Assembly (NCBI RefSeq): GCF_905475395.1
Contig: NC_058339.1
Span: 78,954,520 to 79,018,519 of the forward strand
Source: Chrysoperla carnea
Taxonomy: Eukaryota; Arthropoda; Insecta; Neuroptera; Chrysopidae
Reading direction: 5' to 3'
Length of the DNA: 64,000 bases
Shown here: positions 4,996 to 64,000 of the stretch, in pieces
Numbering within the stretch: position 1 is the first letter of the stretch
How the letters are laid out: every line of letters starts with the position of its first letter
The notes under the pieces: generated by a model
What the model saw: the letters and a program-made list of their open reading frames with translations, nothing else
What the model was told of the DNA's origin: nothing
Databases searched by the model: none
Translations under genes and position numbers: made by a program

Positions 4996-4996
<1 letters not shown>

Positions 4997-5410
4997 CCTA
5001 TGTGTTACTCTGATGTATGAGCTATATTATTCTAAAGTTTCATTCAAATCCATGTAGTAGATTTTGCGTAACAAACAAACAAACTTATTTCGTATTTATA
5101 ATATATAAGGGAAGGGATAGGGATCATCGAGTCATTATGACGCGTGGCAGTTTGTTTCAAAAAGAAAGATTTCAATTATAGCTTTTCTTATCACTTTATA
5201 CAATTGATATATCATAATTTCGCAAGGAAGAATATTGTTCTTATCAGAAAAAAATAAAAATAAAACACTTCAGATAAAAATAGAAATTAAATACTTAGTT
5301 ACTTATATTGCACAGGTATAAGAGAGCCGTTAGTTATAACCTTACATTCTTATTCCTGATGCCACAAGGAATGATAAAATTCATGTTGCCAGGAGAAAAT
5401 CTGGTTCTAT

Positions 5411-5628
5411 TTTTATACCATGTATATATGTAATATATATCAATATGTATATATCATGTATATATGTAATATAATATATACCAGTTGTCTGTCCGTCTGT
5501 CTGTTCGACTGTCCATTTGTGTACACGATAACTCAAAAACGAAAAAAGATATCAAGCTGATATTTTTATAGCGTGCTCAGGACGCCAAAAGTGAGGTCGA
5601 GTTCGTGAATGAGTAATATAGGGCTGGT
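5411..5628 (+). repeat. Dispersed repeat family, copy 2 (truncated)
   Basis: Begins with TTTATACCATGTATATATG, carries a TGTCTGTCCGTCTGTCTG tract and the CGATAACTCAAAAACG block, then stops after GTGAGGTCGAGTTCGTGAATG. The distal half found in the other copies, including the CAATTAACTCAGTCAATTG palindrome, is missing. Confidence 0.65.
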
Positions 5629-32800: not shown

Positions 32801-35800
32801 CGACAATTTGGTGGACTTCCAATATAATTGCTTAAACAAGAGCATGACGGTGTGCCACCGATATCACGACACTCAGAATATGGACCGCATGGCGATGGCA
32901 AACATGGATTTGTGTATATTGGAGTAGCCGGAGGTGGAGACGGTGCTATGTTTTAAGAAGAAAGAAAAATTGTTGATACCAGAAAAAAGTGTACATTTTT
33001 AGGAAAATTGAATATAAGTTTCTTACGTGGTATTGGGAAACATCTGCTGAATGCATCACCAGTGTGGCCTGATTTACATGAGCATATTGGACTGTGATTT
33101 ATAACATGGCATTGTGCATTCAAACCGCAAGGGCCTGGACATGGGTCAACACATTTTTGATTCATACAAGCTTGACTTAAGGGACATTCCGCACTGACAG
33201 TACATTCAGGTCGACATCCTGGTGGTGAGCCAATAAATGTTGGTAAACATGAGCATACTGCTTGGTTATTAATTTCTCTACATTGACTATTGGGTCCACA
33301 CGGCGTTGGTACACATGGATTACCACGCTCTGGTTCAATAGCTGTTAATAATAATTGAGCAGGGTTTTAAAATTTGATTATGAGTATATTCCATTTATAA
33401 TAATAATTGCCAAAAAATGACAACTATCAGATTTAAGAAATAGTTCTTACATTGTGGTGGTTGAATATTGCAATAACGGAAAGGATCTCCCGTATATCCT
33501 TGACGACATGTACATGATGGTAAATGATTGACTACTTGGCAATCTGCATTTTGTCCACATGTTCCTGGACAAGGATCTTGACATTTTTGTCTGATACATG
33601 CACGATTTGATGGACAATCTGAATTAAGGACGCATTCTGGCCTACAACCCTCATACGGGTTGCCAATATGGTCTGCCATACAAGTACAAGATCCGGCGCC
33701 ATTTTGTTCACGGCATATAGCATTTGCTCCACATGGAGAAGGTACACAAGGTGTTGGTCTTTCTTGTGGCAATGATTGTATTTCTTGAACATTACAAACA
33801 GTGAATGGGTCCCCATAATAGCCAGGTAAACAAATACAATTTGGTGTATGACTAACTACACGACATTCAGCATTTGCACCACAAGAGCCGGGGCATGGGT
33901 CTCGACATTTTTGATTAATACATGCTAATTGACTAGAACATTCTCCGTTACTGACACATTCCGGTCTACAATTTGGTGGTGCACCAATAAATTCTGGTAG
34001 GCATGAGCAAGATGGCGAATCACCAGAAACTTGACACTGAGCATTAGGACCACATGGTGATGGCTGGCATGGGTTTGTTGGTATTTCCACGGGTGCTTGT
34101 TCAGCTGTGATGGTGGAAAGAAGTATTCGTTAATGAAAGAAGTTGAGTTGGAGAATTATTCATTGAATGAAAAAAATAGCTTACGTATTGGCGAGCATCG
34201 TATAAATGGATCCCCAGTATATCTTGGTGGGCAACTACAAATTGGATTGTGATATACAACTTCGCATCTAGCACCAATGCCACATGTACCAGGACATGGA
34301 TCGCGACATTTTTGATTGCTACATGCCTCATTAGCAGCACATTCAGAACTAACAACGCATTCTGGTCGACATGTTGGTGGACTACCAATATATCCTGGTA
34401 CACAAGAACATACAGCTTGTCCATTAATTTCGCGACATTGACTGTTCGGTCCACATGGACTTGGATTACAAGGATTTTTGGCTTCTTGCTCTAAAAATTT
34501 TTTTGTTATGTTAAATTTTTATTTGCGATTAGCTTTTAGGTTCAACTTTAAGCAGACAATACATACCAGGTACTGGTCGACATTGTACAAATGCATTTCC
34601 TGTTTGACCTTGTGGGCAACTGCACATTGGAATATGATTAACCACATCACAGAGTGCATTTTGTCCACAAGTGCCAGGGCATGGATTTGTACATTTATTT
34701 CGTATACAAGCTTTATCACGTGGGCAATCCGAACTAAGAACACATTCAGGTCTACATCCAGAATATGGATCACCTTGATATTCAGGTAAGCATGTGCAAA
34801 CTCCGTTATTACATTGTGCATTTGCACCACATGGAGATGGATTGCAAGGATCGACCTCAATTGCTTCTGCTGTAATATTTTTAAAAATGAACACAATTTG
34901 GAATAGTTTGCTAACATTATCAATTTATTTCAATCTTACGTGGTGGTGGTGGTTTCGTATAACAACTGCTGAATGGGTCACCTGTAAATCCTTCTGGACA
35001 GGTGCAGATAGGTGTATGGTTAATAACTGTACATTGAGCATTGACACCACATGAGCCAGGACATGGGTCACGACATTTTTCACGAAGGCATGCTTGGTTG
35101 CTCGAACACTCTGCATTTATTGTGCACTCGGGTCGACAGTTCGGTGGATTTCCAATATATGTACTTAAACAAGAACATGATGGCGCCCCACCTATATCTC
35201 GACATTCCGAATACGGGCCACAAGGCGAAGGTACACAAGGATTGATATAAGTATTTTCTATAGGTTTTTCAGGAGCTGTGAAAAAATGGTATTGGGTTAT
35301 TCTTTGAATTTTGTACCGTAGGGTTTATTCTTACGTTTTATTTGGTTACATCTTGTGAAAGGATCTCCAATATAATTTTGTTTGCAACTGCATATTGGAT
35401 TGTGATTAATAACGGTACATTTTGCATTCAAACCACATACACCGGGGCATGGGTCTACACATTTCTGGTTTATACAAGCTGTACTCTGTGAACATTCGGC
35501 GTTAGTGGTACATTCTGGTCGACATCCTGGTGGTACTCCCAAGAACGTTGGCAAACAAGAGCATACTGCCTGTTCGTTTATTATCTTACACTGGCTGTTA
35601 GGTCCACAAGGTGACGGAATGCATGGATTTGAGGGTGGTGATTCTAAAATAAAAACACAATTTGTTTTTTTGGTAACTGTTCATAGCCATTGAGAAGTGA
35701 AAGCTTTGAGGAGTTTCAATTTATGTGGGATATATTTAGTAAAAGAAATTCGACATAATATTGGGAATATCATTTTGCCGTACGACAATCGGTGGCTTAA

Positions 35801-38800
35801 ATGGAACTACTATAACAATCATAGACTGCAATCCAGCATATGTCAAATAAATAGATGGACAGTAAGATCCTATAGTAATTTACAATCAAACTGTTCAAAT
35901 TATGAATGAACAGTCTTAAAAAAAATCCACACTTTTTTATGGTAAAGTCATTCCATATACCATTTTGATGTTTTTAAAGATTTAATTCTGTTTATTTGTG
36001 ACTTTCCCAATATTAATTATAAACTTCTCAAAAGAACTAATTTTTTATGAATTTTGCAAATTATTTAAGATTGAAAATATGTCTTACGTTCAATTGCAGT
36101 GGGTGGTATAAAGGAACAGAATTTAAATGGATTTCCAGTATATCCAGAGTTGCATGTACATGAAGGCAAATGGTTCACAACTTGACAATCAGCATTAGGA
36201 CCACATGTACCAGGACAAGGGTCTTTACAGATTTGATTTATGCAAGCACGATTTGAAGGGCAATCGGAGTTCAAAATACATTCTGGTCGGCAACCTTCGT
36301 ATGGATTTCCAAAATAATTTGGAAGGCATGAACATGAGCCAATTCGATTTCTTTCACGACAAACAGCATTTGCACCACACGGAGATGGAGTACAAGGAGA
36401 CAGTTTATCGGTTTCCATGATTTCAACTAAAATTAAAATTCTTTTAACATCCATCACTCAGATAACAAATTTTCATTCACTCAGTTAGTAAAATCTAATT
36501 CGAAGCAAGCCATAAAAAAGCAAAATTATTTAGTTGCTGGTTTATTTTTAAAAAAACCCAAAATTTTATACTTAAATGATGTGAATTTTCTTAATTTTAA
36601 ACAAACCATTCATTTCTAACATCATTAATTTAAAAGCGCATTTAAACAACTGTAAAACTTATGCAGAATTAAAAATGTTTAAAATGAAAATAATTATAGA
36701 TAGATTTTAATTCAAAAGAAAAATAACTTCAACATAAGGTTCCAGATTCTTACTTTTAACAATACATTGAGAGAATGGGTCCCCATAATAGCCAGGTAAA
36801 CAAATACAATTTGGTGTATGACTAACTACACGACATTCAGCATTTGCACCACAAGAGCCGGGGCATGGGTCTCGACATTTTTGATTAATACATGCTAATT
36901 GACTAGAACATTCTCCGTTACTGACACATTCCGGTCTACAATTTGGTGGTGCACCAATAAATTCTGGTAGGCATGAGCAAGATGGCGAAACACCAGAAAC
37001 TTGACACTGAGCATTAGGACCACATGGTGATGGCTGGCATGGGTTTGTTGGTATTTCCACGGGTGCTTGTTCAGCTGTGATGGTGGAAAGAAGTATTCGT
37101 TAATGAAAGAAGTTGAGTTGGAGAATTATTCATTGAATGAAAAAAATAGCTTACGTATTGGCGAGCATCGTATAAATGGATCCCCAGTATATCTTGGTGG
37201 GCAACTACAAATTGGATTGTGATATACAACTTCGCATCTAGCACCAATGCCACATGTACCAGGACATGGATCGCGACATTTTTGATTGCTACATGCCTCA
37301 TTAGCAGCACATTCAGAACTAACAACGCACTCTGGTCGACATGTTGGTGGACTACCAATATATCCCGGTACACAAGAACAAACAGCTTGTCCATTAATTT
37401 CGCGACATTGACTGTTTGGTCCACATGGACTTGGATTACAAGGGTGTTTTATTTCGGGTGCTAAAATTATATATTTTATTATATTATTTTAAGGTTTAAG
37501 TTGTTTCATTTTATTTCGTTATTGAATTTCAATTTGCAAATTGAAAAAGTTTACTAATTTTAAAGCATAAATATTACACGTACCAGGTACTGGTCGACAT
37601 TGTACAAATGCATTGCCCGTTTGACCTGGTGGGCAACTGCACATTGGAATATGATTAACCACATCACATAGTGCATTTTGTCCACAAGTGCCAGGGCATG
37701 GATTTGTACATTTATTTCGTATACAAGCTTTATCACGTGGGCAATCCGAACTAAGAACACATTCAGGTCTACATCCAGAATATGGATCACCTTGATATTC
37801 CGGTAAGCATGTACAAACACCATTATCACATTGTGCATTTGCACCGCAAGGTGATGGATTGCAAGGGTCTACCTCAATTGCTTCAGCTGTAATATTGAAA
37901 AATTTACAAAAATTTTTACATTATGCAAGACTAGAGGCAAAGTTATTTATTATATTTCAATCTTACGTGGAGGTGGCGGTTTCGGATAACAATTACTGAA
38001 TGGATCACCAGTATATCCTTCAGGGCATGTACAAACAGGTGTATGATTAATAACACTGCATTGAGCATTTGCACCACAAGATCCAGGGCATGGGTCACGA
38101 CATTTTTCACGAATACATGCTTGATTACTTGCACATTCAGGATTTATTGTGCACTCTGGACGACAATTTGGTGGACTTCCAATATAATTGCTTAAACAAG
38201 AGCATGACGGTGTGCCACCGATATCACGACACTCAGAATATGGACCGCATGGCGATGGCAAACATGGATTTGTGTATATTGGTGCAGCCGGAGGTGGAGA
38301 CGGTGCTATGTTTTAAGAAGAAAGAAAAATTGTTGATACCAGAAAAAAGTGTACATTTTTAGGAAAATTGAATATAAGTTTCTTACGTGGTATTGGGAAA
38401 CATCTGCTGAATGCATCACCAGTATGGCCTGATTTACATGAGCATATTGGACTGTGATTTATAACATGGCATTGTGCATTCAAACCGCAAGGGCCTGGAC
38501 ATGGGTCAACACATTTTTGATTCATACAAGCTTGACTTAAGGGACATTCCGCACTGACAGTACATTCAGGTCGACATCCTGGTGGTGAGCCAATAAATGT
38601 TGGTAAACATGAGCATACTGCTTGGTTATTAATTTCTCTACATTGACTATTGGGTCCACACGGCGTTGGTACACATGGATTACCACGCTCTGGTTCAATA
38701 GCTGTTAATAATAATTGAGCAGGGTTTTAAAATTTGATTATGAGTATATTCCATTTATAATAATAATTGCCAAAAAATGACAACTATCAGATTTAAGAAA

Positions 38801-41800
38801 TAGTTCTTACATTGTGGTGGTTGAATATTGCAATAACGGAAAGGATCTCCCGTATATCCTTGACGACATGTACATGATGGTAAATGATTGACTACTTGGC
38901 AATCTGCATTTTGTCCACATGTTCCTGGACAAGGATCTTGACATTTTTGTCTGATACATGCACGATTTGATGGACAATCTGAATTAAGGACGCATTCTGG
39001 CCTACAACCCTCATACGGGTTGCCAATATGGTCTGCCATACAAGTACAAGATCCGGCGCCATTTTGTTCACGGCATATAGCATTTGCTCCACATGGAGAA
39101 GGTACACAAGGTGTTGGTCTTTCTTGTGGTAATGATTGTATTTCTTGAACATTACAAACAGTGAATGGGTCCCCATAATAGCCAGGTAAACAAATACAAT
39201 TTGGTGTATGACTAACTACACGACATTCAGCATTTGCACCACAAGAGCCGGGGCATGGGTCTCGACATTTTTGATTAATACATGCTAATTGACTAGAACA
39301 TTCTCCGTTACTGACACATTCCGGTCTACAATTTGGTGGTGCACCAATAAATTCTGGTAGGCATGAGCAAGATGGCGAATCACCAGAAACTTGACACTGA
39401 GCATTAGGACCACATGGTGATGGCTGGCATGGGTTTGTTGGTATTTCCACGGGTGCTTGTTCAGCTGTGATGGTGGAAAGAAGTATTCGTTAATGAAAGA
39501 AGTTGAGTTGGAGAATTATTCATTGAATGAAAAAAATAGCTTACGTATTGGCGAGCATCGTATAAATGGATCCCCAGTATATCTTGGTGGGCAACTACAA
39601 ATTGGATTGTGATATACAACTTCGCATCTAGCACCAATGCCACATGTACCAGGACATGGATCGCGACATTTTTGATTGCTACATGCCTCATTAGCAGCAC
39701 ATTCAGAACTAACAACGCACTCTGGTCGACATGTTGGTGGACTACCAATATATCCCGGTACACAAGAACAAACAGCTTGTCCATTAATTTCGCGACATTG
39801 ACTGTTTGGTCCACATGGACTTGGATTACAAGGGTGTTTTATTTCGGGTGCTAAAATTATATATTTTATTATATTATTTTAAGGTTTAAGTTGTTTCATT
39901 TTATTTCGTTATTGAATTTCAATTTGCAAATTGAAAAAGTTTACTAATTTTAAAGCATAAATATTACACGTACCAGGTACTGGTCGACATTGTACAAATG
40001 CATTGCCCGTTTGACCTGGTGGGCAACTGCACATTGGAATATGATTAACCACATCACATAGTGCATTTTGTCCACAAGTGCCAGGGCATGGATTTGTACA
40101 TTTATTTCGTATACAAGCTTTATCACGTGGGCAATCCGAACTAAGAACACATTCAGGTCTACATCCAGAATATGGATCACCTTGATATTCCGGTAAGCAT
40201 GTACAAACACCATTATCACATTGTGCATTTGCACCGCAAGGTGATGGATTGCAAGGGTCTACCTCAATTGCTTCAGCTGTAATATTGAAAAATTTACAAA
40301 AATTTTTACATTATGCAAGACTAGAGGCAAAGTTATTTATTATATTTCAATCTTACGTGGAGGTGGCGGTTTCGGATAACAATTACTGAATGGATCACCA
40401 GTATATCCTTCAGGGCATGTACAAACAGGTGTATGATTAATAACACTGCATTGAGCATTTGCACCACAAGATCCAGGGCATGGGTCACGACATTTTTCAC
40501 GAATACATGCTTGATTACTTGCACATTCAGGATTTATTGTGCACTCTGGACGACAATTTGGTGGACTTCCAATATAATTGCTTAAACAAGAGCATGACGG
40601 TGTGCCACCGATATCACGACACTCAGAATATGGACCGCATGGCGATGGCAAACATGGATTTGTGTATATTGGTGCAGCCGGAGGTGGAGACGGTGCTATG
40701 TTTTAAGAAGAAAGAAAAATTGTTGATACCAGAAAAAAGTGTACATTTTTAGGAAAATTGAATATAAGTTTCTTACGTGGTATTGGGAAACATCTGCTGA
40801 ATGCATCACCAGTATGGCCTGATTTACATGAGCATATTGGACTGTGATTTATAACATGGCATTGTGCATTCAAACCGCAAGGGCCTGGACATGGGTCAAC
40901 ACATTTTTGATTCATACAAGCTTGACTTAAGGGACATTCCGCACTGACAGTACATTCAGGTCGACATCCTGGTGGTGAGCCAATAAATGTTGGTAAACAT
41001 GAGCATACTGCTTGGTTATTAATTTCTCTACATTGACTATTGGGTCCACACGGCGTTGGTACACATGGATTACCACGCTCTGGTTCAATAGCTGTTAATA
41101 ATAATTGAGCAGGGTTTTAAAATTTGATTATGAGTATATTCCATTTATAATAATAATTGCCAAAAAATGACAACTATCAGATTTAAGAAATAGTTCTTAC
41201 ATTGTGGTGGTTGAATATTGCAATAACGGAAAGGATCTCCCGTATATCCTTGACGACATGTACATGATGGTAAATGATTGACTACTTGGCAATCTGCATT
41301 TTGTCCACATGTTCCTGGACAAGGATCTTGACATTTTTGTCTGATACATGCACGATTTGATGGACAATCTGAATTAAGGACGCATTCTGGCCTACAACCC
41401 TCATACGGGTTGCCAATATGGTCTGCCATACAAGTACAAGATCCGGCGCCATTTTGTTCACGGCATATAGCATTTGCTCCACATGGAGAAGGTACACAAG
41501 GTGTTGGTCTTTCTTGTGGTAATGATTGTATTTCTTGAACATTACAAACAGTGAATGGGTCCCCATAATAGCCAGGTAAACAAATACAATTTGGTGTATG
41601 ACTAACTACACGACATTCAGCATTTGCACCACAAGAGCCGGGGCATGGGTCTCGACATTTTTGATTAATACATGCTAATTGACTAGAACATTCTCCGTTA
41701 CTGACACATTCCGGTCTACAATTTGGTGGTGCACCAATAAATTCTGGTAGGCATGAGCAAGATGGCGAATCACCAGAAACTTGACACTGAGCATTAGGAC

Positions 41801-44800
41801 CACATGGTGATGGCTGGCATGGGTTTGTTGGTATTTCCACGGGTGCTTGTTCAGCTGTGATGGTGGAAAGAAGTATTCGTTAATGAAAGAAGTTGAGTTG
41901 GAGAATTATTCATTGAATGAAAAAAATAGCTTACGTATTGGCGAGCATCGTATAAATGGATCCCCAGTATATCTTGGTGGGCAACTACAAATTGGATTGT
42001 GATATACAACTTCGCATCTAGCACCAATGCCACATGTACCAGGACATGGATCGCGACATTTTTGATTGCTACATGCCTCATTAGCAGCACATTCAGAACT
42101 AACAACGCACTCTGGTCGACATGTTGGTGGACTACCAATATATCCCGGTACACAAGAACAAACAGCTTGTCCATTAATTTCGCGACATTGACTGTTTGGT
42201 CCACATGGACTTGGATTGCAAGGGTGTTTTATTTCGGGTGCTAAAATTATATATTTTATTATATTATTTTAAGGTTTAAGTTGTTTCATTTTATTTCGTT
42301 ATTGAATTTCAATTTGCAAATTGAAAAAGTTTACTAATTTTAAAGCATAAATATTACACGTACCAGGTACTGGTCGACATTGTACAAATGCATTGCCCGT
42401 TTGACCTGGTGGGCAACTGCACATTGGAATATGATTAACCACATCACATAGTGCATTTTGTCCACAAGTGCCAGGGCATGGATTTGTACATTTATTTCGT
42501 ATACAAGCTTTATCACGTGGGCAATCCGAACTAAGAACACATTCAGGTCTACATCCAGAATATGGATCACCTTGATATTCCGGTAAGCATGTACAAACAC
42601 CATTATCACATTGTGCATTTGCACCGCAAGGTGATGGATTGCAAGGGTCTACCTCAATTGCTTCAGCTGTAATATTGAAAAATTTACAAAAATTTTTACA
42701 TTATGCAAGACTAGAGGCAAAGTTATTTATTATATTTCAATCTTACGTGGAGGTGGCGGTTTCGGATAACAATTACTGAATGGATCACCAGTATATCCTT
42801 CAGGGCATGTACAAACAGGTGTATGATTAATAACACTGCATTGAGCATTTGCACCACAAGATCCAGGGCATGGGTCACGACATTTTTCACGAATACATGC
42901 TTGATTACTTGCACATTCAGGATTTATTGTGCACTCTGGACGACAATTTGGAGGACTTCCAATATAATTGCTTAAACAAGAGCATGACGGTGTGCCACCG
43001 ATATCACGACACTCAGAATATGGACCGCATGGCGATGGCAAACATGGATTTGTGTATATTGGTGCAGCCGGAGGTGGAGACGGTGCTATGTTTTAAGAAG
43101 AAAGAAAAATTGTTGATACCAGAAAAAAGTGTACATTTTTAGGAAAATTGAATATAAGTTTCTTACGTGGTATTGGGAAACATCTGCTGAATGCATCACC
43201 AGTATGGCCTGATTTACATGAGCATATTGGACTGTGATTTATAACATGGCATTGTGCATTCAAACCGCAAGGGCCTGGACATGGGTCAACACATTTTTGA
43301 TTCATACAAGCTTGACTTAAGGGACATTCCGCACTGACAGTACATTCAGGTCGACATCCTGGTGGTGAGCCAATAAATGTTGGTAAACATGAGCATACTG
43401 CTTGGTTATTAATTTCTCTACATTGACTATTGGGTCCACACGGCGTTGGTACACATGGATTACCACGCTCTGGTTCAATAGCTGTTAATAATAATTGAGC
43501 AGGGTTTTAAAATTTGATTATGAGTATATTCCATTTATAATAATAATTGCCAAAAAATGACAACTATCAGATTTAAGAAATAGTTCTTACATTGTGGTGG
43601 TTGAATATTGCAATAACGGAAAGGATCTCCCGTATATCCTTGACGACATGTACATGATGGTAAATGATTGACTACTTGGCAATCTGCATTTTGTCCACAT
43701 GTTCCTGGACAAGGATCTTGACATTTTTGTCTGATACATGCACGATTTGATGGACAATCTGAATTAAGGACGCATTCTGGCCTACAACCCTCATACGGGT
43801 TGCCAATATGGTCTGCCATACAAGTACAAGATCCGGCGCCATTTTGTTCACGGCATATAGCATTTGCTCCACATGGAGAAGGTACACAAGGTGTTGGTCT
43901 TTCTTGTGGTAATGATTGTATTTCTTGAACATTACAAACAGTGAATGGGTCCCCATAATAGCCAGGTAAACAAATACAATTTGGTGTATGACTAACTACA
44001 CGACATTCAGCATTTGCACCACAAGAGCCGGGGCATGGGTCTCGACATTTTTGATTAATACATGCTAATTGACTAGAACATTCTCCGTTACTGACACATT
44101 CCGGTCTACAATTTGGTGGTGCACCAATAAATTCTGGTAGGCATGAGCAAGATGGCGAATCACCAGAAACTTGACACTGAGCATTAGGACCACATGGTGA
44201 TGGCTGGCATGGGTTTGTTGGTATTTCCACGGGTGCTTGTTCAGCTGTGATGGTGGAAAGAAGTATTCGTTAATGAAAGAAGTTGAGTTGGAGAATTATT
44301 CATTGAATGAAAAAAATAGCTTACGTATTGGCGAGCATCGTATAAATGGATCCCCAGTATATCTTGGTGGGCAACTACAAATTGGATTGTGATATACAAC
44401 TTCGCATCTAGCACCAATGCCACATGTACCAGGACATGGATCGCGACATTTTTGATTGCTACATGCCTCATTAGCAGCACATTCAGAACTAACAACGCAC
44501 TCTGGTCGACATGTTGGTGGACTACCAATATATCCCGGTACACAAGAACAAACAGCTTGTCCATTAATTTCGCGACATTGACTGTTTGGTCCACATGGAC
44601 TTGGATTGCAAGGGTGTTTTATTTCGGGTGCTAAAATTATATATTTTATTATATTATTTTAAGGTTTAAGTTGTTTCATTTTATTTCGTTATTGAATTTC
44701 AATTTGCAAATTGAAAAAGTTTACTAATTTTAAAGCATAAATATTACACGTACCAGGTACTGGTCGACATTGTACAAATGCATTGCCCGTTTGACCTGGT

Positions 44801-47800
44801 GGGCAACTGCACATTGGAATATGATTAACCACATCACATAGTGCATTTTGTCCACAAGTGCCAGGGCATGGATTTGTACATTTATTTCGTATACAAGCTT
44901 TATCACGTGGGCAATCCGAACTAAGAACACATTCAGGTCTACATCCAGAATATGGATCACCTTGATATTCCGGTAAGCATGTACAAACACCATTATCACA
45001 TTGTGCATTTGCACCGCAAGGTGATGGATTGCAAGGGTCTACCTCAATTGCTTCAGCTGTAATATTGAAAAATTTACAAAAATTTTTACATTATGCAAGA
45101 CTAGAGGCAAAGTTATTTATTATATTTCAATCTTACGTGGAGGTGGCGGTTTCGGATAACAATTACTGAATGGATCACCAGTATATCCTTCAGGGCATGT
45201 ACAAACAGGTGTATGATTAATAACACTGCATTGAGCATTTGCACCACAAGATCCAGGGCATGGGTCACGACATTTTTCACGAATACATGCTTGATTACTT
45301 GCACATTCAGGATTTATTGTGCACTCTGGACGACAATTTGGAGGACTTCCAATATAATTGCTTAAACAAGAGCATGACGGTGTGCCACCGATATCACGAC
45401 ACTCAGAATATGGACCGCATGGCGATGGCAAACATGGATTTGTGTATATTGGTGCAGCCGGAGGTGGAGACGGTGCTATGTTTTAAGAAGAAAGAAAAAT
45501 TGTTGATACCAGAAAAAAGTGTACATTTTTAGGAAAATTGAATATAAGTTTCTTACGTGGTATTGGGAAACATCTGCTGAATGCATCACCAGTATGGCCT
45601 GATTTACATGAGCATATTGGACTGTGATTTATAACATGGCATTGTGCATTCAAACCGCAAGGGCCTGGACATGGGTCAACACATTTTTGATTCATACAAG
45701 CTTGACTTAAGGGACATTCCGCACTGACAGTACATTCAGGTCGACATCCTGGTGGTGAGCCAATAAATGTTGGTAAACATGAGCATACTGCTTGGTTATT
45801 AATTTCTCTACATTGACTATTGGGTCCACACGGCGTTGGTACACATGGATTACCACGCTCTGGTTCAATAGCTGTTAATAATAATTGAGCAGGGTTTTAA
45901 AATTTGATTATGAGTATATTCCATTTATAATAATAATTGCCAAAAAATGACAACTATCAGATTTAAGAAATAGTTCTTACATTGTGGTGGTTGAATATTG
46001 CAATAACGGAAAGGATCTCCCGTATATCCTTGACGACATGTACATGATGGTAAATGATTGACTACTTGGCAATCTGCATTTTGTCCACATGTTCCTGGAC
46101 AAGGATCTTGACATTTTTGTCTGATACATGCACGATTTGATGGACAATCTGAATTAAGGACGCATTCTGGCCTACAACCCTCATACGGGTTGCCAATATG
46201 GTCTGCCATACAAGTACAAGATCCGGCGCCATTTTGTTCACGGCATATAGCATTTGCTCCACATGGAGAAGGTACACAAGGTGTTGGTCTTTCTTGTGGC
46301 AATGATTGTATTTCTTGAACATTACAAACAGTGAATGGGTCCCCATAATAGCCAGGTAAACAAATACAATTTGGTGTATGACTAACTACACGACATTCAG
46401 CATTTGCACCACAAGAGCCGGGGCATGGGTCTCGACATTTTTGATTAATACATGCTAATTGACTAGAACATTCTCCGTTACTGACACATTCCGGTCTACA
46501 ATTTGGTGGTGCACCAATAAATTCTGGTAGGCATGAGCAAGATGGCGAATCACCAGAAACTTGACACTGAGCATTAGGACCACATGGTGATGGCTGGCAT
46601 GGGTTTGTTGGTATTTCCACGGGTGCTTGTTCAGCTGTGATGGTGGAAAGAAGTATTCGTTAATGAAAGAAGTTGAGTTGGAGAATTATTCATTGAATGA
46701 AAAAAATAGCTTACGTATTGGCGAGCATCGTATAAATGGATCCCCAGTATATCTTGGTGGGCAACTACAAATTGGATTGTGATATACAACTTCGCATCTA
46801 GCACCAATGCCACATGTACCAGGACATGGATCGCGACATTTTTGATTGCTACATGCCTCATTAGCAGCACATTCAGAACTAACAACGCACTCTGGTCGAC
46901 ATGTTGGTGGACTACCAATATATCCCGGTACACAAGAACAAACAGCTTGTCCATTAATTTCGCGACATTGACTGTTTGGTCCACATGGACTTGGATTGCA
47001 AGGGTGTTTTATTTCGGGTGCTAAAATTATATATTTTATTATATTATTTTAAGGTTTAAGTTGTTTCATTTTATTTCGTTATTGAATTTCAATTTGCAAA
47101 TTGAAAAAGTTTACTAATTTTAAAGCATAAATATTACACGTACCAGGTACTGGTCGACATTGTACAAATGCATTGCCCGTTTGACCTGGTGGGCAACTGC
47201 ACATTGGAATATGATTAACCACATCACATAGTGCATTTTGTCCACAAGTGCCAGGGCATGGATTTGTACATTTATTTCGTATACAAGCTTTATCACGTGG
47301 GCAATCCGAACTAAGAACACATTCAGGTCTACATCCAGAATATGGATCACCTTGATATTCCGGTAAGCATGTACAAACACCATTATCACATTGTGCATTT
47401 GCACCGCAAGGTGATGGATTGCAAGGGTCTACCTCAATTGCTTCAGCTGTAATATTGAAAAATTTACAAAAATTTTTACATTATGCAAGACTAGAGGCAA
47501 AGTTATTTATTATATTTCAATCTTACGTGGAGGTGGCGGTTTCGGATAACAATTACTGAATGGATCACCAGTATATCCTTCAGGGCATGTACAAACAGGT
47601 GTATGATTAATAACACTGCATTGAGCATTTGCACCACAAGATCCAGGGCATGGGTCACGACATTTTTCACGAATACATGCTTGATTACTTGCACATTCAG
47701 GATTTATTGTGCACTCTGGACGACAATTTGGTGGACTTCCAATATAATTGCTTAAACAAGAGCATGACGGTGTGCCACCGATATCACGACACTCAGAATA

Positions 47801-50800
47801 TGGACCGCATGGCGATGGCAAACATGGATTTGTGTATATTGGTGCAGCCGGAGGTGGAGACGGTGCTATGTTTTAAGAAGAAAGAAAAATTTTTGATACC
47901 AGAAAAAAGTGTACATTTTTAGGAAAATTGAATATAAGTTTCTTACGTGGTATTGGGAAACATCTGCTGAATGCATCACCAGTATGGCCTGATTTACATG
48001 AGCATATTGGACTGTGATTTATAACATGGCATTGTGCATTCAAACCGCAAGGGCCTGGACATGGGTCAACACATTTTTGATTCATACAAGCTTGACTTAA
48101 GGGACATTCCGCACTGACAGTACATTCAGGTCGACATCCTGGTGGTGAGCCAATAAATGTTGGTAAACATGAGCATACTGCTTGGTTATTAATTTCTCTA
48201 CATTGACTATTGGGTCCACACGGCGTTGGTACACATGGATTACCACGCTCTGGTTCAATAGCTGTTAATAATAATTGAGCAGGGTTTTAAAATTTGATTA
48301 TGAGTATATTCCATTTATAATAATAATTGCCAAAAAATGACAACTATCAGATTTAAGAAATAGTTCTTACATTGTGGTGGTTGAATATTGCAATAACGGA
48401 AAGGATCTCCCGTATATCCTTGACGACATGTACATGATGGTAAATGATTGACTACTTGGCAATCTGCATTTTGTCCACATGTTCCTGGACAAGGATCTTG
48501 ACATTTTTGTCTGATACATGCACGATTTGATGGACAATCTGAATTAAGGACGCATTCTGGCCTACAACCCTCATACGGGTTGCCAATATGGTCTGCCATA
48601 CAAGTACAAGATCCGGCGCCATTTTGTTCACGGCATATAGCATTTGCTCCACATGGAGAAGGTACACAAGGTGTTGGTCTTTCTTGTGGCAATGATTGTA
48701 TTTCTTGAACATTACAAACAGTGAATGGGTCCCCATAATAGCCAGGTAAACAAATACAATTTGGTGTATGACTAACTACACGACATTCAGCATTTGCACC
48801 ACAAGAGCCGGGGCATGGGTCTCGACATTTTTGATTAATACATGCTAATTGACTAGAACATTCTCCGTTACTGACACATTCCGGTCTACAATTTGGTGGT
48901 GCACCAATAAATTCTGGTAGGCATGAGCAAGATGGCGAATCACCAGAAACTTGACACTGAGCATTAGGACCACATGGTGATGGCTGGCATGGGTTTGTTG
49001 GTATTTCCACGGGTGCTTGTTCAGCTGTGATGGTGGAAAGAAGTATTCGTTAATGAAAGAAGTTGAGTTGGAGAATTATTCATTGAATGAAAAAAATAGC
49101 TTACGTATTGGCGAGCATCGTATAAATGGATCCCCAGTATATCTTGGTGGGCAACTACAAATTGGATTGTGATATACAACTTCGCATCTAGCACCAATGC
49201 CACATGTACCAGGACATGGATCGCGACATTTTTGATTGCTACATGCCTCATTAGCAGCACATTCAGAACTAACAACGCACTCTGGTCGACATGTTGGTGG
49301 ACTACCAATATATCCCGGTACACAAGAACAAACAGCTTGTCCATTAATTTCGCGACATTGACTGTTTGGTCCACATGGACTTGGATTACAAGGGTGTTTT
49401 ATTTCGGGTGCTAAAATTATATATTTTATTATATTATTTTAAGGTTTAAGTTGTTTCATTTTATTTCGTTATTGAATTTCAATTTGCAAATTGAAAAAGT
49501 TTACTAATTTTAAAGCATAAATATTACACGTACCAGGTACTGGTCGACATTGTACAAATGCATTGCCCGTTTGACCTGGTGGGCAACTGCACATTGGAAT
49601 ATGATTAACCACATCACATAGTGCATTTTGTCCACAAGTGCCAGGGCATGGATTTGTACATTTATTTCGTATACAAGCTTTATCACGTGGGCAATCCGAA
49701 CTAAGAACACATTCAGGTCTACATCCAGAATATGGATCACCTTGATATTCCGGTAAGCATGTACAAACACCATTATCACATTGTGCATTTGCACCGCAAG
49801 GTGATGGATTGCAAGGGTCTACCTCAATTGCTTCAGCTGTAATATTGAAAAATTTACAAAAATTTTTACATTATGCAAGACTAGAGGCAAAGTTATTTAT
49901 TATATTTCAATCTTACGTGGAGGTGGCGGTTTCGGATAACAATTACTGAATGGATCACCAGTATATCCTTCAGGGCATGTACAAACAGGTGTATGATTAA
50001 TAACACTGCATTGAGCATTTGCACCACAAGATCCAGGGCATGGGTCACGACATTTTTCACGAATACATGCTTGATTACTTGCACATTCAGGATTTATTGT
50101 GCACTCTGGACGACAATTTGGTGGACTTCCAATATAATTGCTTAAACAAGAGCATGACGGTGTGCCACCGATATCACGACACTCAGAATATGGACCGCAT
50201 GGCGATGGCAAACATGGATTTGTGTATATTGGTGCAGCCGGAGGTGGAGACGGTGCTATGTTTTAAGAAGAAAGAAAAATTTTTGATACCAGAAAAAAGT
50301 GTACATTTTTAGGAAAATTGAATATAAGTTTCTTACGTGGTATTGGGAAACATCTGCTGAATGCATCACCAGTATGGCCTGATTTACATGAGCATATTGG
50401 ACTGTGATTTATAACATGGCATTGTGCATTCAAACCGCAAGGGCCTGGACATGGGTCAACACATTTTTGATTCATACAAGCTTGACTTAAGGGACATTCC
50501 GCACTGACAGTACATTCAGGTCGACATCCTGGTGGTGAGCCAATAAATGTTGGTAAACATGAGCATACTGCTTGGTTATTAATTTCTCTACATTGACTAT
50601 TGGGTCCACACGGCGTTGGTACACATGGATTACCACGCTCTGGTTCAATAGCTGTTAATAATAATTGAGCAGGGTTTTAAAATTTGATTATGAGTATATT
50701 CCATTTATAATAATAATTGCCAAAAAATGACAACTATCAGATTTAAGAAATAGTTCTTACATTGTGGTGGTTGAATATTGCAATAACGGAAAGGATCTCC

Positions 50801-53800
50801 CGTATATCCTTGACGACATGTACATGATGGTAAATGATTGACTACTTGGCAATCTGCATTTTGTCCACATGTTCCTGGACAAGGATCTTGACATTTTTGT
50901 CTGATACATGCACGATTTGATGGACAATCTGAATTAAGGACGCATTCTGGCCTACAACCCTCATACGGGTTGCCAATATGGTCTGCCATACAAGTACAAG
51001 ATCCGGCGCCATTTTGTTCACGGCATATAGCATTTGCTCCACATGGAGAAGGTACACAAGGTGTTGGTCTTTCTTGTGGCAATGATTGTATTTCTTGAAC
51101 ATTACAAACAGTGAATGGGTCCCCATAATAGCCAGGTAAACAAATACAATTTGGTGTATGACTAACTACACGACATTCAGCATTTGCACCACAAGAGCCG
51201 GGGCATGGGTCTCGACATTTTTGATTAATACATGCTAATTGACTAGAACATTCTCCGTTACTGACACATTCCGGTCTACAATTTGGTGGTGCACCAATAA
51301 ATTCTGGTAGGCATGAGCAAGATGGCGAATCACCAGAAACTTGACACTGAGCATTAGGACCACATGGTGATGGCTGGCATGGGTTTGTTGGTATTTCCAC
51401 GGGTGCTTGTTCAGCTGTGATGGTGGAAAGAAGTATTCGTTAATGAAAGAAGTTGAGTTGGAGAATTATTCATTGAATGAAAAAAATAGCTTACGTATTG
51501 GCGAGCATCGTATAAATGGATCCCCAGTATATCTTGGTGGGCAACTACAAATTGGATTGTGATATACAACTTCGCATCTAGCACCAATGCCACATGTACC
51601 AGGACATGGATCGCGACATTTTTGATTGCTACATGCCTCATTAGCAGCACATTCAGAACTAACAACGCACTCTGGTCGACATGTTGGTGGACTACCAATA
51701 TATCCCGGTACACAAGAACAAACAGCTTGTCCATTAATTTCGCGACATTGACTGTTTGGTCCACATGGACTTGGATTACAAGGGTGTTTTATTTCGGGTG
51801 CTAAAATTATATATTTTATTATATTATTTTAAGGTTTAAGTTGTTTCATTTTATTTCGTTATTGAATTTCAATTTGCAAATTGAAAAAGTTTACTAATTT
51901 TAAAGCATAAATATTACACGTACCAGGTACTGGTCGACATTGTACAAATGCATTGCCCGTTTGACCTGGTGGGCAACTGCACATTGGAATATGATTAACC
52001 ACATCACATAGTGCATTTTGTCCACAAGTGCCAGGGCATGGATTTGTACATTTATTTCGTATACAAGCTTTATCACGTGGGCAATCCGAACTAAGAACAC
52101 ATTCAGGTCTACATCCAGAATATGGATCACCTTGATATTCCGGTAAGCATGTACAAACACCATTATCACATTGTGCATTTGCACCGCAAGGTGATGGATT
52201 GCAAGGGTCTACCTCAATTGCTTCGGCTGTAATATTGAAAAATTTACAAAAATTTTTACATTATGCAAGACTAGAGGCAAAGTTATTTATTATATTTCAA
52301 TCTTACGTGGAGGTGGCGGTTTCGGATAACAATTACTGAATGGATCACCAGTATATCCTTCAGGGCATGTACAAACAGGTGTATGATTAATAACACTGCA
52401 TTGAGCATTTGCACCACAAGATCCAGGGCATGGGTCACGACATTTTTCACGAATACATGCTTGATTACTTGCACATTCAGGATTTATTGTGCACTCTGGA
52501 CGACAATTTGGTGGACTTCCAATATAATTGCTTAAACAAGAGCATGACGGTGTGCCACCGATATCACGACACTCAGAATATGGACCGCATGGCGATGGCA
52601 AACATGGATTTGTGTATATTGGTGCAGCCGGAGGTGGAGACGGTGCTATGTTTTAAGAAGAAAGAAAAATTGTTGATACCAGAAAAAAGTGTACATTTTT
52701 AGGAAAATTGAATATAAGTTTCTTACGTGGTATTGGGAAACATCTGCTGAATGCATCACCAGTATGGCCTGATTTACATGAGCATATTGGACTGTGATTT
52801 ATAACATGGCATTGTGCATTCAAACCGCAAGGGCCTGGACATGGGTCAACACATTTTTGATTCATACAAGCTTGACTTAAGGGACATTCCGCACTGACAG
52901 TACATTCAGGTCGACATCCTGGTGGTGAGCCAATAAATGTTGGTAAACATGAGCATACTGCTTGGTTATTAATTTCTCTACATTGACTATTGGGTCCACA
53001 CGGCGTTGGTACACATGGATTACCACGCTCTGGTTCAATAGCTGTTAATAATAATTGAGCAGGGTTTTAAAATTTGATTATGAGTATATTCCATTTATAA
53101 TAATAATTGCCAAAAAATGACAACTATCAGATTTAAGAAATAGTTCTTACATTGTGGTGGTTGAATATTGCAATAACGGAAAGGATCTCCCGTATATCCT
53201 TGACGACATGTACATGATGGTAAATGATTGACTACTTGGCAATCTGCATTTTGTCCACATGTTCCTGGACAAGGATCTTGACATTTTTGTCTGATACATG
53301 CACGATTTGATGGACAATCTGAATTAAGGACGCATTCTGGCCTACAACCCTCATACGGGTTGCCAATATGGTCTGCCATACAAGTACAAGATCCGGCGCC
53401 ATTTTGTTCACGGCATATAGCATTTGCTCCACATGGAGAAGGTACACAAGGTGTTGGTCTTTCTTGTGGCAATGATTGTATTTCTTGAACATTACAAACA
53501 GTGAATGGGTCCCCATAATAGCCAGGTAAACAAATACAATTTGGTGTATGACTAACTACACGACATTCAGCATTTGCACCACAAGAGCCGGGGCATGGGT
53601 CTCGACATTTTTGATTAATACATGCTAATTGACTAGAACATTCTCCGTTACTGACACATTCCGGTCTACAATTTGGTGGTGCACCAATAAATTCTGGTAG
53701 GCATGAGCAAGATGGCGAATCACCAGAAACTTGACACTGAGCATTAGGACCACATGGTGATGGCTGGCATGGGTTTGTTGGTATTTCCACGGGTGCTTGT

Positions 53801-56800
53801 TCAGCTGTGATGGTGGAAAGAAGTATTCGTTAATGAAAGAAGTTGAGTTGGAGAATTATTCATTGAATGAAAAAAATAGCTTACGTATTGGCGAGCATCG
53901 TATAAATGGATCCCCAGTATATCTTGGTGGGCAACTACAAATTGGATTGTGATATACAACTTCGCATCTAGCACCAATGCCACATGTACCAGGACATGGA
54001 TCGCGACATTTTTGATTGCTACATGCCTCATTAGCAGCACATTCAGAACTAACAACGCACTCTGGTCGACATGTTGGTGGACTACCAATATATCCCGGTA
54101 CACAAGAACAAACAGCTTGTCCATTAATTTCGCGACATTGACTGTTTGGTCCACATGGACTTGGATTACAAGGGTGTTTTATTTCGGGTGCTAAAATTAT
54201 ATATTTTATTATATTATTTTAAGGTTTAAGTTGTTTCATTTTATTTCGTTATTGAATTTCAATTTGCAAATTGAAAAAGTTTACTAATTTTAAAGCATAA
54301 ATATTACACGTACCAGGTACTGGTCGACATTGTACAAATGCATTGCCCGTTTGACCTGGTGGGCAACTGCACATTGGAATATGATTAACCACATCACATA
54401 GTGCATTTTGTCCACAAGTGCCAGGGCATGGATTTGTACATTTATTTCGTATACAAGCTTTATCACGTGGGCAATCCGAACTAAGAACACATTCAGGTCT
54501 ACATCCAGAATATGGATCACCTTGATATTCCGGTAAGCATGTACAAACACCATTATCACATTGTGCATTTGCACCGCAAGGTGATGGATTGCAAGGGTCT
54601 ACCTCAATTGCTTCAGCTGTAATATTGAAAAATTTACAAAAATTTTTACATTATGCAAGACTAGAGGCAAAGTTATTTATTATATTTCAATCTTACGTGG
54701 AGGTGGCGGTTTCGGATAACAATTACTGAATGGATCACCAGTATATCCTTCAGGGCATGTACAAACAGGTGTATGATTAATAACACTGCATTGAGCATTT
54801 GCACCACAAGATCCAGGGCATGGGTCACGACATTTTTCACGAATACATGCTTGATTACTTGCACATTCAGGATTTATTGTGCACTCTGGACGACAATTTG
54901 GTGGACTTCCAATATAATTGCTTAAACAAGAGCATGACGGTGTGCCACCGATATCACGACACTCAGAATATGGACCGCATGGCGATGGCAAACATGGATT
55001 TGTGTATATTGGTGCAGCCGGAGGTGGAGACGGTGCTATGTTTTAAGAAGAAAGAAAAATTTTTGATACCAGAAAAAAGTGTACATTTTTAGGAAAATTG
55101 AATATAAGTTTCTTACGTGGTATTGGGAAACATCTGCTGAATGCATCACCAGTATGGCCTGATTTACATGAGCATATTGGACTGTGATTTATAACATGGC
55201 ATTGTGCATTCAAACCGCAAGGGCCTGGACATGGGTCAACACATTTTTGATTCATACAAGCTTGACTTAAGGGACATTCCGCACTGACAGTACATTCAGG
55301 TCGACATCCTGGTGGTGAGCCAATAAATGTTGGTAAACATGAGCATACTGCTTGGTTATTAATTTCTCTACATTGACTATTGGGTCCACACGGCGTTGGT
55401 ACACATGGATTACCACGCTCTGGTTCAATAGCTGTTAATAATAATTGAGCAGGGTTTTAAAATTTGATTATGAGTATATTCCATTTATAATAATAATTGC
55501 CAAAAAATGACAACTATCAGATTTAAGAAATAGTTCTTACATTGTGGTGGTTGAATATTGCAATAACGGAAAGGATCTCCCGTATATCCTTGACGACATG
55601 TACATGATGGTAAATGATTGACTACTTGGCAATCTGCATTTTGTCCACATGTTCCTGGACAAGGATCTTGGCATTTTTGTCTGATACATGCACGATTTGA
55701 TGGACAATCTGAATTAAGGACGCATTCTGGCCTACAACCCTCATACGGGTTGCCAATATGGTCTGCCATACAAGTACAAGATCCGGCGCCATTTTGTTCA
55801 CGGCATATAGCATTTGCTCCACATGGAGAAGGTACACAAGGCGTTGGTCTCTCTTGTATAACTGGAGAATCTGGTTAAAAACCAAAGACTTTAAAATTAG
55901 GCTAAAATTCTTTTGCAGGTGCTACTTTGAAGCTGGGATTTTATTTTTGGCGAAGCTGTTCTTTAAATAAAAAAGCGTTTGGAGTGGATTTCTGGAAGGA
56001 GTTTTTTTTGTTATTTTGTTTTCCATATTGAGATTTGATTTCTAATGCTTACGTTCCGTAATGTTTGTTTCTTCTAGGATTTTTATTTATTTTTACGTAA
56101 TCTGCAATGCTCATTATCATTTCGTAAGATAGAAGTTATTTTTATTTTTCAGGAATGCTCGTATTACTTTTGGGTTGTTATTTTATATTGAGGATTTTAT
56201 TTAGGCCCTCAAGGATTTCTTTTGTTGTTTATGTAAGCTCTTAGTTAGTACGCATTCAAACATTTTATAAGTTTGTATTATATATTTTTTCCCTAGGCTC
56301 TTATATATTTTCTTTATTCTTAAAGCTTAATTGTTAGTATGTATATAGAAATTGTTTCACTACTGTTCAATTCAAAGCTACCTCTTTGTGTTTGAACGAA
56401 ACTGAAAAGACTAGTGTTAAGTTAAACGGTTCAAATATTAAAATGAAAATTATTGTTATTTCGTAATATTTGTCGTTCCATTTGGTAAAAATTATTTTAT
56501 CTCAATTATAACTTTGTGTGAACTTTTATAGACACTCTCTGTCAATTTCGTTTCAAGCACTTAATTTTTTCCCTAGGCTCTTATAAGCTTGACTTTTAAA
56601 ATTTTATTATGAAAGTATAGTATTAATACGTGGGGTCATTTTTTGAAGGGTAACCTTTGATTTAAGCGCATTTGTTAAGGTGGTATAAGTTAAGATGTTT
56701 AGTCAGCAATTCAGCACCAACGTTGGGGAACGTGGACTTACCTTTTTCAAGCTCCCATAAGTTAGTTTATAAAATTAACATATTAAATTATGCTTCCATT

Positions 56801-59800
56801 ATTGTAAGTTGTGGAAAAAACAGTTATAAATTATTTGATACAATGCTTTTATTTTTCTAAAATCGAATTTTTTAAGAAAAATTCAGTAAGATCAATTGAA
56901 TAAAGCCAAAATTAAAATTAATTTGTTGTACGCATTTTTTTCCCAAAATTACAATAATGTGTTAAAAAAAAAAAAATTATTTAAATTTTAAATATGAACT
57001 AATATACTAATTATGTGTCACTAATATACTAATATTATACTTGATCGCTAATATTATATTATTTTAAACGACTTTTATATAAACATTTTAATACAATTTC
57101 GTTTAAATGACTTATCTGCAGAATTTTATATATATATTTTGTTAAAATATATTATTTTAAAAATTTCAAATTATTTCTATATGCATTAGGTGTTTAATTT
57201 AGGGGTTAGAGATATTATATTTAATTAAAAATGCATATAGCAATTTTTGAAATCAAAACTAATTAGATTCATATTTAAAATTTATTATAAACCTTACTAC
57301 TAACTAACATACTAATTCGGGAGGGGGGAGGTGGTATGCAAGCGAATATTTGTATTATTTTTGTAGCAAATCAAATATAACATTTATGCTAGGAAAAACT
57401 TAAAATGAATTGTTATAATAACTTGAACCAGAATTATTTTAAGTTATGAGTTGCGCTATCTTTCCTGATACTCAATTATCCTGCAGTTTTTTAACTAAAG
57501 CAAATTATTTAAATTCAAATAACTTAAAATTAATTTAAAGATTGCAAAATTGTTCAATAAGCAAATTATAATTTACTGAAGGTTAATAATTTAAATACGA
57601 ATAATAGATTAAATAATTGAATTATATAAATTCAATTAAAATAGTTTGTGCAAACTTTCCTCTTCCTTTTTCTTCTAAGCAAATTATCCGCATACAGACT
57701 TTCACAGTTAAAACAAATTGCTAAAAATATCTTTATTTAAAGTTTGTGATTCAATAAGCAAATTATAACAACGTAAGGGTTAAAATTTCAACTGAAATAC
57801 CTAGCAAAATGCATGGCTAAAAAACAGGGGCGTAGCTACTAGCTTTATGAGATATCCAGATTTCATGGAAAATCTTTATGGGAAATGAAATAAAAAAAAC
57901 TCGTATAAACAAGACATTCTATTAATGAAATGGAAACTTTCTCTTTTTCTATAAACGTTTTTTATTATAGCACCTATACTTGAAGTAGTAAAAAGTTTTT
58001 CGAGTTGCTTTTTCTATTGACAATGTTGATAAGCACATTTTAATTGAATTGAAATTCTGGTTTTAAACATTATTTTAAAACAACTAATAACTCGTTTTGC
58101 GGCCTCCATTTGCTTATCTTGTTTAAAATATAAACGAGAAGGGATTTAGTGGCCCAAAAAGTTTTAAACACATTTTCAGATTACAGAAAGTTCTGAAATC
58201 TTTATTTGGTCTGAGAAATCAACATATTCAGCAATTCTCAATGATTCTAAAGTAAAAATCAGTAATTTTCATCAAAAATCTTATTTGCTGGTAACTCATT
58301 AAAAGACTCTCCTTCATTCTTGGTTTTTTTTTTCCTAAAAGGTGTTATGCTTTGCTGATTTACCAATTCTCTGGATTATACATTCATTTATTAAGCTCAC
58401 TTATGATTGTATAATTAATACCTTTGATATGGCATTAGCTACGCCTCTATTATTTAATATTCCCTACTTAAATTCTGTGTATGCTTGCAAAAAAGTTAAT
58501 AGGCTTGCTTGTTCTCCCATTAGTGGTGCAGTTACACTGATCTCTATATAGGTGGATAGACGGGTTTAATATTGAAGCATTCCCAGCGTCCCAAAATCGA
58601 TTTAATAAGAAGTACAATGTTGTCAAATATGCGCTTGCTTCTTTTCATTTTTTTTAGTTCTATCCTCTTTTTTGGAGGCGCTAGTTTATACTTAAATTTA
58701 AAAGAATTTCAAAACATGGGATCCTCTATCCAGTTATATAGAGATTAGTGTACAATTATAAATAAAATTAAAAAAATGCAATTTCTTACCTTTAATTTCG
58801 AAACATCCACTAAATGGATCGCCAGAATAACCCACAACACAAGAACACACTGCATTATGATTCACTACAACACACTGGGCATTAGGGCCACAAGAACCTG
58901 GACATGGATCGGCACACTTTTGGTTCATACACGCGAGATTACTATTACACTCTGGATTTATAGTACACTCTGGTCTACAATTTGGTGGAACACCAATGTA
59001 ATTCGATAAACATGTACAAGCCGGACTTTCACCTCTAACTTGACATTGTGAATTTGGTCCACAAGGTGAAGGTACACAAGGATTCACATTTGTGGGTGGT
59101 GTTTGTTGTTTTGGTATTTCATAGCATCTTGTAAATGGATCACCAGTATATCCATTGGAACAACTGCAAATGGGATTGTGGTTTACAACACGACATTTTG
59201 CATTTGGTCCACAAGTTCCAGGACATGGGTCTTTGCATTTATTTCCCAAGCAAGCTAATGTCATTGGGCAATCAGCACTGACTATACATTCTGCTCTACA
59301 CGTCGGTGCGCTACCAATGAATCCAGTTTGACAAGAACAAACTGCAATTCCATTTGTAATTCGACATATACTGTTTGGTCCGCAAGGTGATGGGCTGCAT
59401 GGATCTTTCGGTGTTTCTGAAATTTTTCGTTGGTGTTATTACATACATTTGAATTTTAATTAATCTAATGAACAGTTACCTATTTTGAATGGTCTACATG
59501 CCGTGAATGGATCGCCAGATGTGCCTGGTGGGCAACTACAAGTTGGAATATGATTGTTAACATTGCATAGGGCTGCTTGGCCACAAGTTCCAATACAAGG
59601 ATCAACACACCGCAAGTTAATACAAGATTTATTTGGAGAACATTCACTATTGGTAACACATTCGGGTCTACATCCTCTATATGGATCGCCGAAATAGTTT
59701 GGTTGACAAGAACATGCACCATTATCGCATAAAGCATTTGAACCACAAGGCGACGGTGAACAAGGATCTTGATGTGTTGGTGGGCGGATTGGTTCTAAAA

Positions 59801-63303: not shown

Positions 63304-63384
63304 CTAAAAGAGTATTTATATAAAAATGTAGAAAGATAGAAAAATATACAATAAAAGTAGAAAATTGAAATATTAAAAATATAG

Positions 63385-63711
63385 CGATACAACCAGTCGA
63401 GGCACCCATTGATCCATGTTCTCCATCACCATGTGGAGCTAATGCAATCTGTAGAGAACGTAATGGAGCTGGATCATGTACTTGTATTTCTGAACATTAT
63501 GGTGATCCTTATACGGGTTGTCGCCCAGAATGCGTAGTTAATAGCGATTGTGATCGGGAAAGAGCATGTGTAAATCATAAATGTACAAATCCATGTCCTG
63601 GTACTTGTGGAATCAACGCTGAATGCAGAGTCATTAATCATGCTCCATCATGCTCCTGTTTATTAGGATATACAGGAAATCCAATTTCTGCTTGTCAACT
63701 TATACCTCCTA
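63385..63711 (+). CDS. dpy: dpy-type exon on the opposite strand, one module (109 codons)
   Basis: Read on the + strand: PVEAPIDPCSPSPCG, CVVNSDCDRERACVNHKC and CGINAECRVINHAPSCSC. Acceptor AAATATAG at 63384, donor CCTA|GTAAGC at 63712, both phase 1 and a length of 327 nt, so it behaves exactly like a normal dpy exon. Its first-EGF text RERNGAGSCTC is the A2 style. It is inverted relative to all 78 other dpy exons. Confidence 0.9.
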
Positions 63712-63812
63712 GTAAGCTCTCTCTTTTTTTCTTTACACTTTTTTTTACTTCTAAAAATTATGTTTTTTATTTTTATTTTTCTATATCTGATGCATGTTAT
63801 TTTTATTATTAG

Positions 63813-64000
63813 TTGAACAAATTCCAATAGACCCATGCCAACCATCACCATGTGGCGCAAATAGTATTTGTCGGGTTGTAAATGAGCACGGCGTTTGCTC
63901 ATGTAAAGTGGGTTATATAGGGGTACCTCCAAATTGTCGACCAGAATGTATGGTTAGCACAGATTGTGCACAAGATAAAACTTGTATTAATCAAAAATGT
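63813..64000 (+). CDS. dpy: dpy-type exon on the opposite strand, cut by the window end
   Basis: Acceptor TTATTATTAG at 63812, then EQIPIDPCQPSPCGANSIC, VGVPPNCRPEC and CMVSTDCAQDKTCINQKC up to the last base. It follows a 101-bp intron after the previous exon, showing that the flipped block has ordinary dpy exon-intron spacing and continues beyond the window. Confidence 0.9.

Follow-up and report, generated by a model that had tools for sequence, protein, structure and literature searches.

Gene identity and layout of the locus

The dumpy gene is a giant gene whose product is a fibre tying tissue to the cuticle. The window analysed here, a 64,000-nt stretch of the Chrysoperla carnea genome (NC_058339.1, positions 78,954,520 to 79,018,519), carries on its minus strand part of a gene that, judged by its domain content, is the dumpy orthologue, and within that gene a tandem array of eight near-identical copies of a 2,390-bp, five-exon coding unit. 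All coordinates are window positions unless a neighbouring segment (L009-L018) is named.

A first-pass annotation of the sequence had already named the gene dumpy, and this identification is upheld by three lines of evidence: each array unit contains six Dumpy_DPY stretches (Pfam PF21164, E 8.5e-65), the largest exon of the unit matches PDB entry 1oig, 'Dumpy, isoform Y' (E 2e-8), and the 3' end of the gene carries a CUT_N (cuticlin N-terminal) domain (Pfam, E 2.2e-11). We take CUT_N to count as the ZP-type domain near the C-terminus by which Dumpy is recognised. In the region analysed, comprising the window and neighbouring sequence, 111 modules passed the cut. A genome-wide search for PF21164 (150 of 168 candidates scored) returned at least 122 matches and, among the matches listed, all lie on contig C3, within or adjoining the window. 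A simple splice-and-codon model spanning 164 kb (the window plus L009-L018), which starts downstream of the 5' end of the gene, yielded a stop-free product of 19,885 residues, excluding the tail beyond 15227, from exons that are almost all of phase 1-1. The far 3' tail of the model was dropped because it looks spurious.

The main features of the array and of the 3' end of the gene are as follows.

36773-55857, minus strand: homogenised array, eight copies (starts 36773, 39163, 41553, 43943, 46333, 48723, 51113 and 53503)
43591-44244, minus strand: representative exon E, 654 nt, modules E1 and E2 fused
43167-43481, minus strand: representative exon A, 315 nt
42747-43085, minus strand: representative exon B, 339 nt
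42364-42666, minus strand: representative exon C, 303 nt, module with a short first EGF
41935-42240, minus strand: representative exon D, 306 nt
55541-55870, minus strand: exon X, E2 module alone, at the 5' edge of the array in gene direction; array-like to 55857, own intron beyond
36754-37074, minus strand: exon Y, E1 module alone, at the 3' edge of the array in gene direction; array-like to 36773, own intron beyond
15195-18674, minus strand: 3' end of the dumpy gene, DPY modules and CUT_N (Pfam)

A homogenised array of five-exon units

Self-comparison at a lag of 2,390 bp resolves 36773-55857 as one continuous block of 7.985 head-to-tail copies. Successive copies are separated by 14 isolated mismatches, two of them in the final 16 bp, and by no indels, and the longest exact matches at this lag reach 3,347 bp. 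When aligned, the eight copies vary at nine of 2,390 columns and differ pairwise at 1-6 sites (mean 3.18; the eighth copy is 2,355 bp long). Exons E, A, B, C and D together contribute 1,917 nt, or 639 amino acids (aa), and the six PF21164 stretches correspond to six EGF-DPY-EGF modules; the introns are all of phase 1 and measure 80-123 bp each. Introns are as conserved as exons, with one variable site in 473 bp against eight in 1,917 bp. In all these respects (about eight indel-free blocks, introns as alike as exons, 639 residues and six modules per block) the first-pass description proved accurate. Since the unit is symmetric (phase 1-1) and holds 639 codons, the gain or loss of whole units preserves the reading frame. 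Both boundaries of the array fall in the middle of exon E, the two-module exon.

The copy number derives from one assembly. Across the 559-Mb assembly, a 41-mer from the E-A intron has exactly 10 exact matches, every one of them within this gene on contig C3: eight in the array and two in older blocks. This exact search revealed no second haplotype in the assembly. The array does not appear in the Tandem Repeats Finder list, for which the longest period is 500. Open reading frames of 102-104 aa on the plus strand within the units are antisense to the exons.

The nine variable sites of the array comprise one intronic, seven synonymous and one replacement change, the last a D to V substitution in the copy at the low-coordinate end. 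Assuming that 72-78% of random changes are replacements, the probability of one or fewer replacements in eight is 0.0002-0.0009, or 0.003-0.009 with the six sites left when two edge sites are excluded. This excess of synonymous variants implies that the blocks are probably translated. Together with the phase-1 unit and the stop-free model it agrees with the coding status proposed at first pass, and the array appears to be coding by every sign in its sequence. The variants are also ordered along the array: four shared variants cluster on adjacent copies (permutation p = 0.010), and four of the five private variants lie in the two end copies. Both patterns are expected under exchange between neighbours.

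Older mosaic blocks flank the array

The array is bordered by older relatives of the unit, and the module register is continuous across both of its ends. The diverged and mosaic blocks at 26414-36426 had gone unrecorded in the first-pass annotation.

36088-36426, minus strand: separate diverged E2 exon, 77% aa identity, which keeps the module register outside the array
26414-35643, minus strand: older blocks b1-b4, order A-B-C-D-E, mosaic relative to the array
33065-34359, minus strand: exchange tract of 1,295 bp that differs from the array unit at one position, its introns as close as its exons
27590-29451, minus strand: exchange tract, 97.8% identical to the array unit (mismatches at 39 of 1592 exon positions and 2 of 270 intron positions)
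58790-62895, minus strand: upstream older super-repeats (exons 58790-59416, 59480-59824, 59873-60829, 60894-62483 and 62563-62895)

Between 26414 and 36426, downstream of the array in gene direction, tracts near-identical to the array alternate with deeply diverged introns (about 47-67% identity to the array). Exon E of b1 differs from the array at one of 654 positions, and the E-A introns are 98.2-100% identical to it in all three blocks compared (b1-b3). The A-B introns are identical to the array in b2 and b4, and only 47% and 53% identical in b1 and b3; the D-E introns reach 97.5-100% in b1 and b3 and an intermediate 88% in b2; and the B-C intron of b2 reaches 98.8%. The C-D introns are diverged from the array in all four older blocks (53-67%), and those of b1 and b3 are 100% identical to each other. 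On the other side of the array, the upstream older super-repeats retain the same or nearly the same cysteine spacing, with about 64-76% DNA identity to the unit.

Synonymous divergence (dS) from the array was calculated for 13 hand-chosen exon pairs, 12 pairing the array with an older block and one with an upstream exon. It takes values of 0.04, 0.10, 0.12, 0.21, 0.30, 0.53, and 1.0 and above, up to more than 1.5. A single event would have given one age, so the many ages of the flanking tracts point to repeated exchange. The ratio of nonsynonymous to synonymous divergence (dN/dS) is 0.04-0.17 in 12 of the 13 pairs, the thirteenth being saturated, and the modules are under strong purifying selection.

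At the E1/E2 boundary the flanking copies have an intron and the array copies a single fused exon. This points to one of two things: exon E marks where the units of an old tandem duplication were joined, or exchange is limited by the intron. The fused exon E is also found in older blocks b1-b3 and therefore predates the present homogenised core. Within the older blocks, 27590-29860 and 32612-34881 are 98.1% identical at a lag of 5,022 bp, suggesting a two-block duplication.

Super-repeat number and protein length

The six-module unit is not a novelty but the known Dumpy super-repeat. For Drosophila, PMC10895422 describes a Dumpy "super repeat" of six EGF-DPY-EGF units and 639 aa, reported to occur 13 times (citing Wilkin et al. 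2000). The C. carnea unit has the same six modules, 639 aa and 1,917 coding nt, and is recognised in the same way, by its cysteine spacing. The count in C. carnea depends on the definition adopted. Hexamers with exact spacing in all six modules number 12, with starts at 60818, in the eight core copies, and at 36397, 33754 and 31417. Modules with the short C spacing make up 14 of the 111, and each lies within a hexamer matching at least five of six modules, which adds starts at 62875 and 28732. When the short C module is not required, five more upstream starts match five of six modules but overlap one another, and the two non-overlapping additions bring the total to 16. The array accordingly holds eight of 12-16 super-repeats, and the overall number (12 by exact spacing, 14 when counted by the short module, at most 16 on the looser definition) is similar to the 13 reported for Drosophila. 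The difference lies in the eight copies here that are near-identical in DNA, introns included, the Drosophila copies being compared by description only. The unusual feature is not the unit but the homogenisation of eight super-repeats right through their introns. No paper on near-identical dumpy super-repeats was found at the level of titles and abstract openings, and we do not claim that such reports are absent from print.

Because the unit is a known super-repeat and the total lies near the Drosophila figure, the array may have left the length of the protein unchanged. The data agree equally well with homogenisation alone and with residues added by the array, and the earlier proposal that the array had added about 5,100 residues is left unsupported by this comparison with the reported Drosophila count. 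It is conceivable, though doubtful, that the number of super-repeats has stayed at about 13 ever since the split from the Drosophila lineage, even as the copies were overwritten; the dependence of the total on definition makes this less likely. If true, Dumpy would be under stabilising selection for fibre length in 639-aa units, recombination could homogenise the sequence while the total stays fixed, and a giant matrix protein would evolve in length independently of its sequence.

Origin of the array

We consider it probable that the array reflects concerted evolution, in which super-repeats are kept near-identical by continuing non-allelic exchange through unequal crossing-over plus conversion. 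Meiotic unequal exchange would alter the number of 639-aa blocks; selection would eliminate damaged blocks and perhaps also fibres of insufficient or excessive length; and every copy would be spliced into a rod-like stretch of the Dumpy fibre, which would then lengthen or shorten in six-module steps, one unit each. Several points weigh against this interpretation. A single assembled haplotype is the basis for deducing exchange, the splicing of every copy is a prediction, and the evidence does not separate unequal crossing-over from gene conversion. The adjacency test comprises only four sites, one of which (copies 5, 6 and 8) is non-contiguous; two of the eight exonic variants are found at the edge of the array and could have come from the flank; and the lone replacement sits in an end copy.

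A single recent burst, in which this lineage expanded one super-repeat roughly eightfold, with a gain of some 4,500 residues and little later exchange, would also account for copies differing at just 1-6 sites. It would further explain why both array ends fall at the E1/E2 boundary, with an intron in the flanks and a fused exon in the array, as if E were the junction of the founding duplication. Such a burst is nonetheless unlikely, if still deserving of some weight: the fused exon E in b1-b3 makes the founding old, the flanking tracts show several ages and their mosaic structure is left unexplained, and the total of 12-16 super-repeats lies near the number reported for Drosophila. The suggestion of very recent amplification or exchange made at first pass therefore stands in part: the copies have been homogenised by recent exchange, and a single recent amplification leaves the mosaic flanks of many ages unexplained. 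Selection on the protein acting on old copies is real enough as a force, given the strong constraint on the modules, but as the sole cause of their likeness it is scarcely credible and we reject it on intron identity, because array introns and synonymous sites are near-invariant while several older-block introns are only 47-67% identical to the array.

An assembler could also have multiplied or miscounted a shorter array, given copies about 99.9% identical, exact matches at lag 2,390 longer than 3 kb (up to the 3,347 bp given above), an array length (19 kb) about that of typical accurate long reads, and a perfect 666-bp inverted copy about 7.5 kb from the array. We regard this as quite improbable. 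Copy-specific variants fall in several patterns not expected from copying one block, older copies in the same order are present at 26-36 kb and 59-63 kb, and the array is embedded in a 94-Mb contig, with all 10 exact matches of the intron 41-mer in this gene. An error in the copy count is possible; a fabricated array is opposed by the copy-specific variants and the older copies.

If the copies truly exchange, as the concerted-evolution reading holds, dumpy would be a natural ruler graduated in 2,390-bp units, each standing for six modules of load-bearing fibre, and length alleles could be scored at the DNA level and related to wing or cuticle mechanics.

Comparison with known coding repeats

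Drosophila dumpy itself contains the PIGSFEAST (PF) repeat, described in PMC2930355 as a 102-aa unit in about 40 copies within one large exon and undergoing concerted evolution; the same paper reports that RT-PCR in Drosophila detected transcripts without exons 35-50 or 35-69. On that description, both systems are tandem, near-identical coding repeats of the same gene evolving in concert, but the homogenised unit here spans 2,390 bp and five exons that encode EGF/DPY modules. In our best reading, the concerted evolution of the array is of a kind already known from PIGSFEAST, with a different homogenised unit. This suggests that the focus of concerted evolution within one gene may differ among insects, lying in the PF exon in Drosophila and in the EGF-DPY super-repeats here. 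Having been described for Drosophila, PIGSFEAST was not treated as defining the Dumpy family.

At about 78.3-88.1 kb in window numbering (L014-L015), some 1,700 residues are mostly serine/threonine-rich (S/T-rich) and cysteine-poor, with degenerate short repeats and a cysteine-bearing part mid-way; the location is roughly that expected for a PIGSFEAST-like region. No 102-aa PIGSFEAST array was found in this S/T-rich region (residues ~3900-5600), where the best lags were 46, 44, 109 and 65 and lag 102 ranked ninth.

Multi-exon coding repeats are known from two human genes. According to PMC11201333 and PMC11462820, the kringle IV type 2 variable number tandem repeat of LPA has a unit of about 5.6 kb with two exons, mostly intron; it resembles the dumpy array in being a multi-exon coding tandem repeat with introns, a conserved core and flanking similar domains that share identical exons. 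The nebulin triplicate region, as described in PMC9109913, is an eight-exon, 10-kb block in three copies, likewise tandemly repeated inside a giant structural gene, although with fewer copies and in an unrelated protein. According to these sources, copy number has been measured for both LPA, where it is polymorphic, and nebulin, where it was measured in people, whereas the dumpy count comes from a single assembly.

Hierarchical organization of modules

Outside the array, the 36 upstream modules (58790-64000 and on to L014:81, with the highest module start at position 74081 by window numbering) follow a three-module period. Identity at lags 3, 9 and 15 is 0.627, 0.609 and 0.588, and at lags 6, 12 and 18 it is 0.625, 0.606 and 0.572, against about 0.51-0.53 at other lags; none of 5,000 shuffles matched the period-3 statistic. 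A gene-wide six-module period was sought by sequence identity and not found, lag 6 showing no advantage over lag 3 in the upstream modules. Judged by the spacing of cysteines, the hexamer's diagnostic short C module is present only from 61.8 kb downward. Two triplets make up the super-repeat, and what chiefly tells them apart is that the first EGF of module C is short. Above these two levels the array forms a third, the youngest of the hierarchy. This suggests that a coding gene may carry a satellite-like hierarchy, from three-module period through six-module super-repeat to eightfold homogenised core.

Other features of the region

The 666-bp inverted copy extends from 63370 to 64000 and on to L013:1-35, and is 100% identical to L013:2540-3205, about 2.5 kb away. 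It contains one whole dumpy exon, an intron and part of the next exon, sits in a predicted dumpy intron and places two DPY modules on the plus strand. Two explanations are considered: the segment was duplicated in inverse orientation very recently, in which case its RNA could fold into a long hairpin, or the assembly is wrong here. A predicted exon at 63406-63489 falls within this copy and was rejected as spurious. Downstream of the predicted 3' end of dumpy, a tandem repeat at 8930-9788 has a 306-bp unit present 2.8 times, with 93% matches. Two stretches of about 570 bp, at 1627-2192 and L018:2109-2660, are inverted relative to each other, 91% identical and 114 kb apart; they are perhaps a mobile element.

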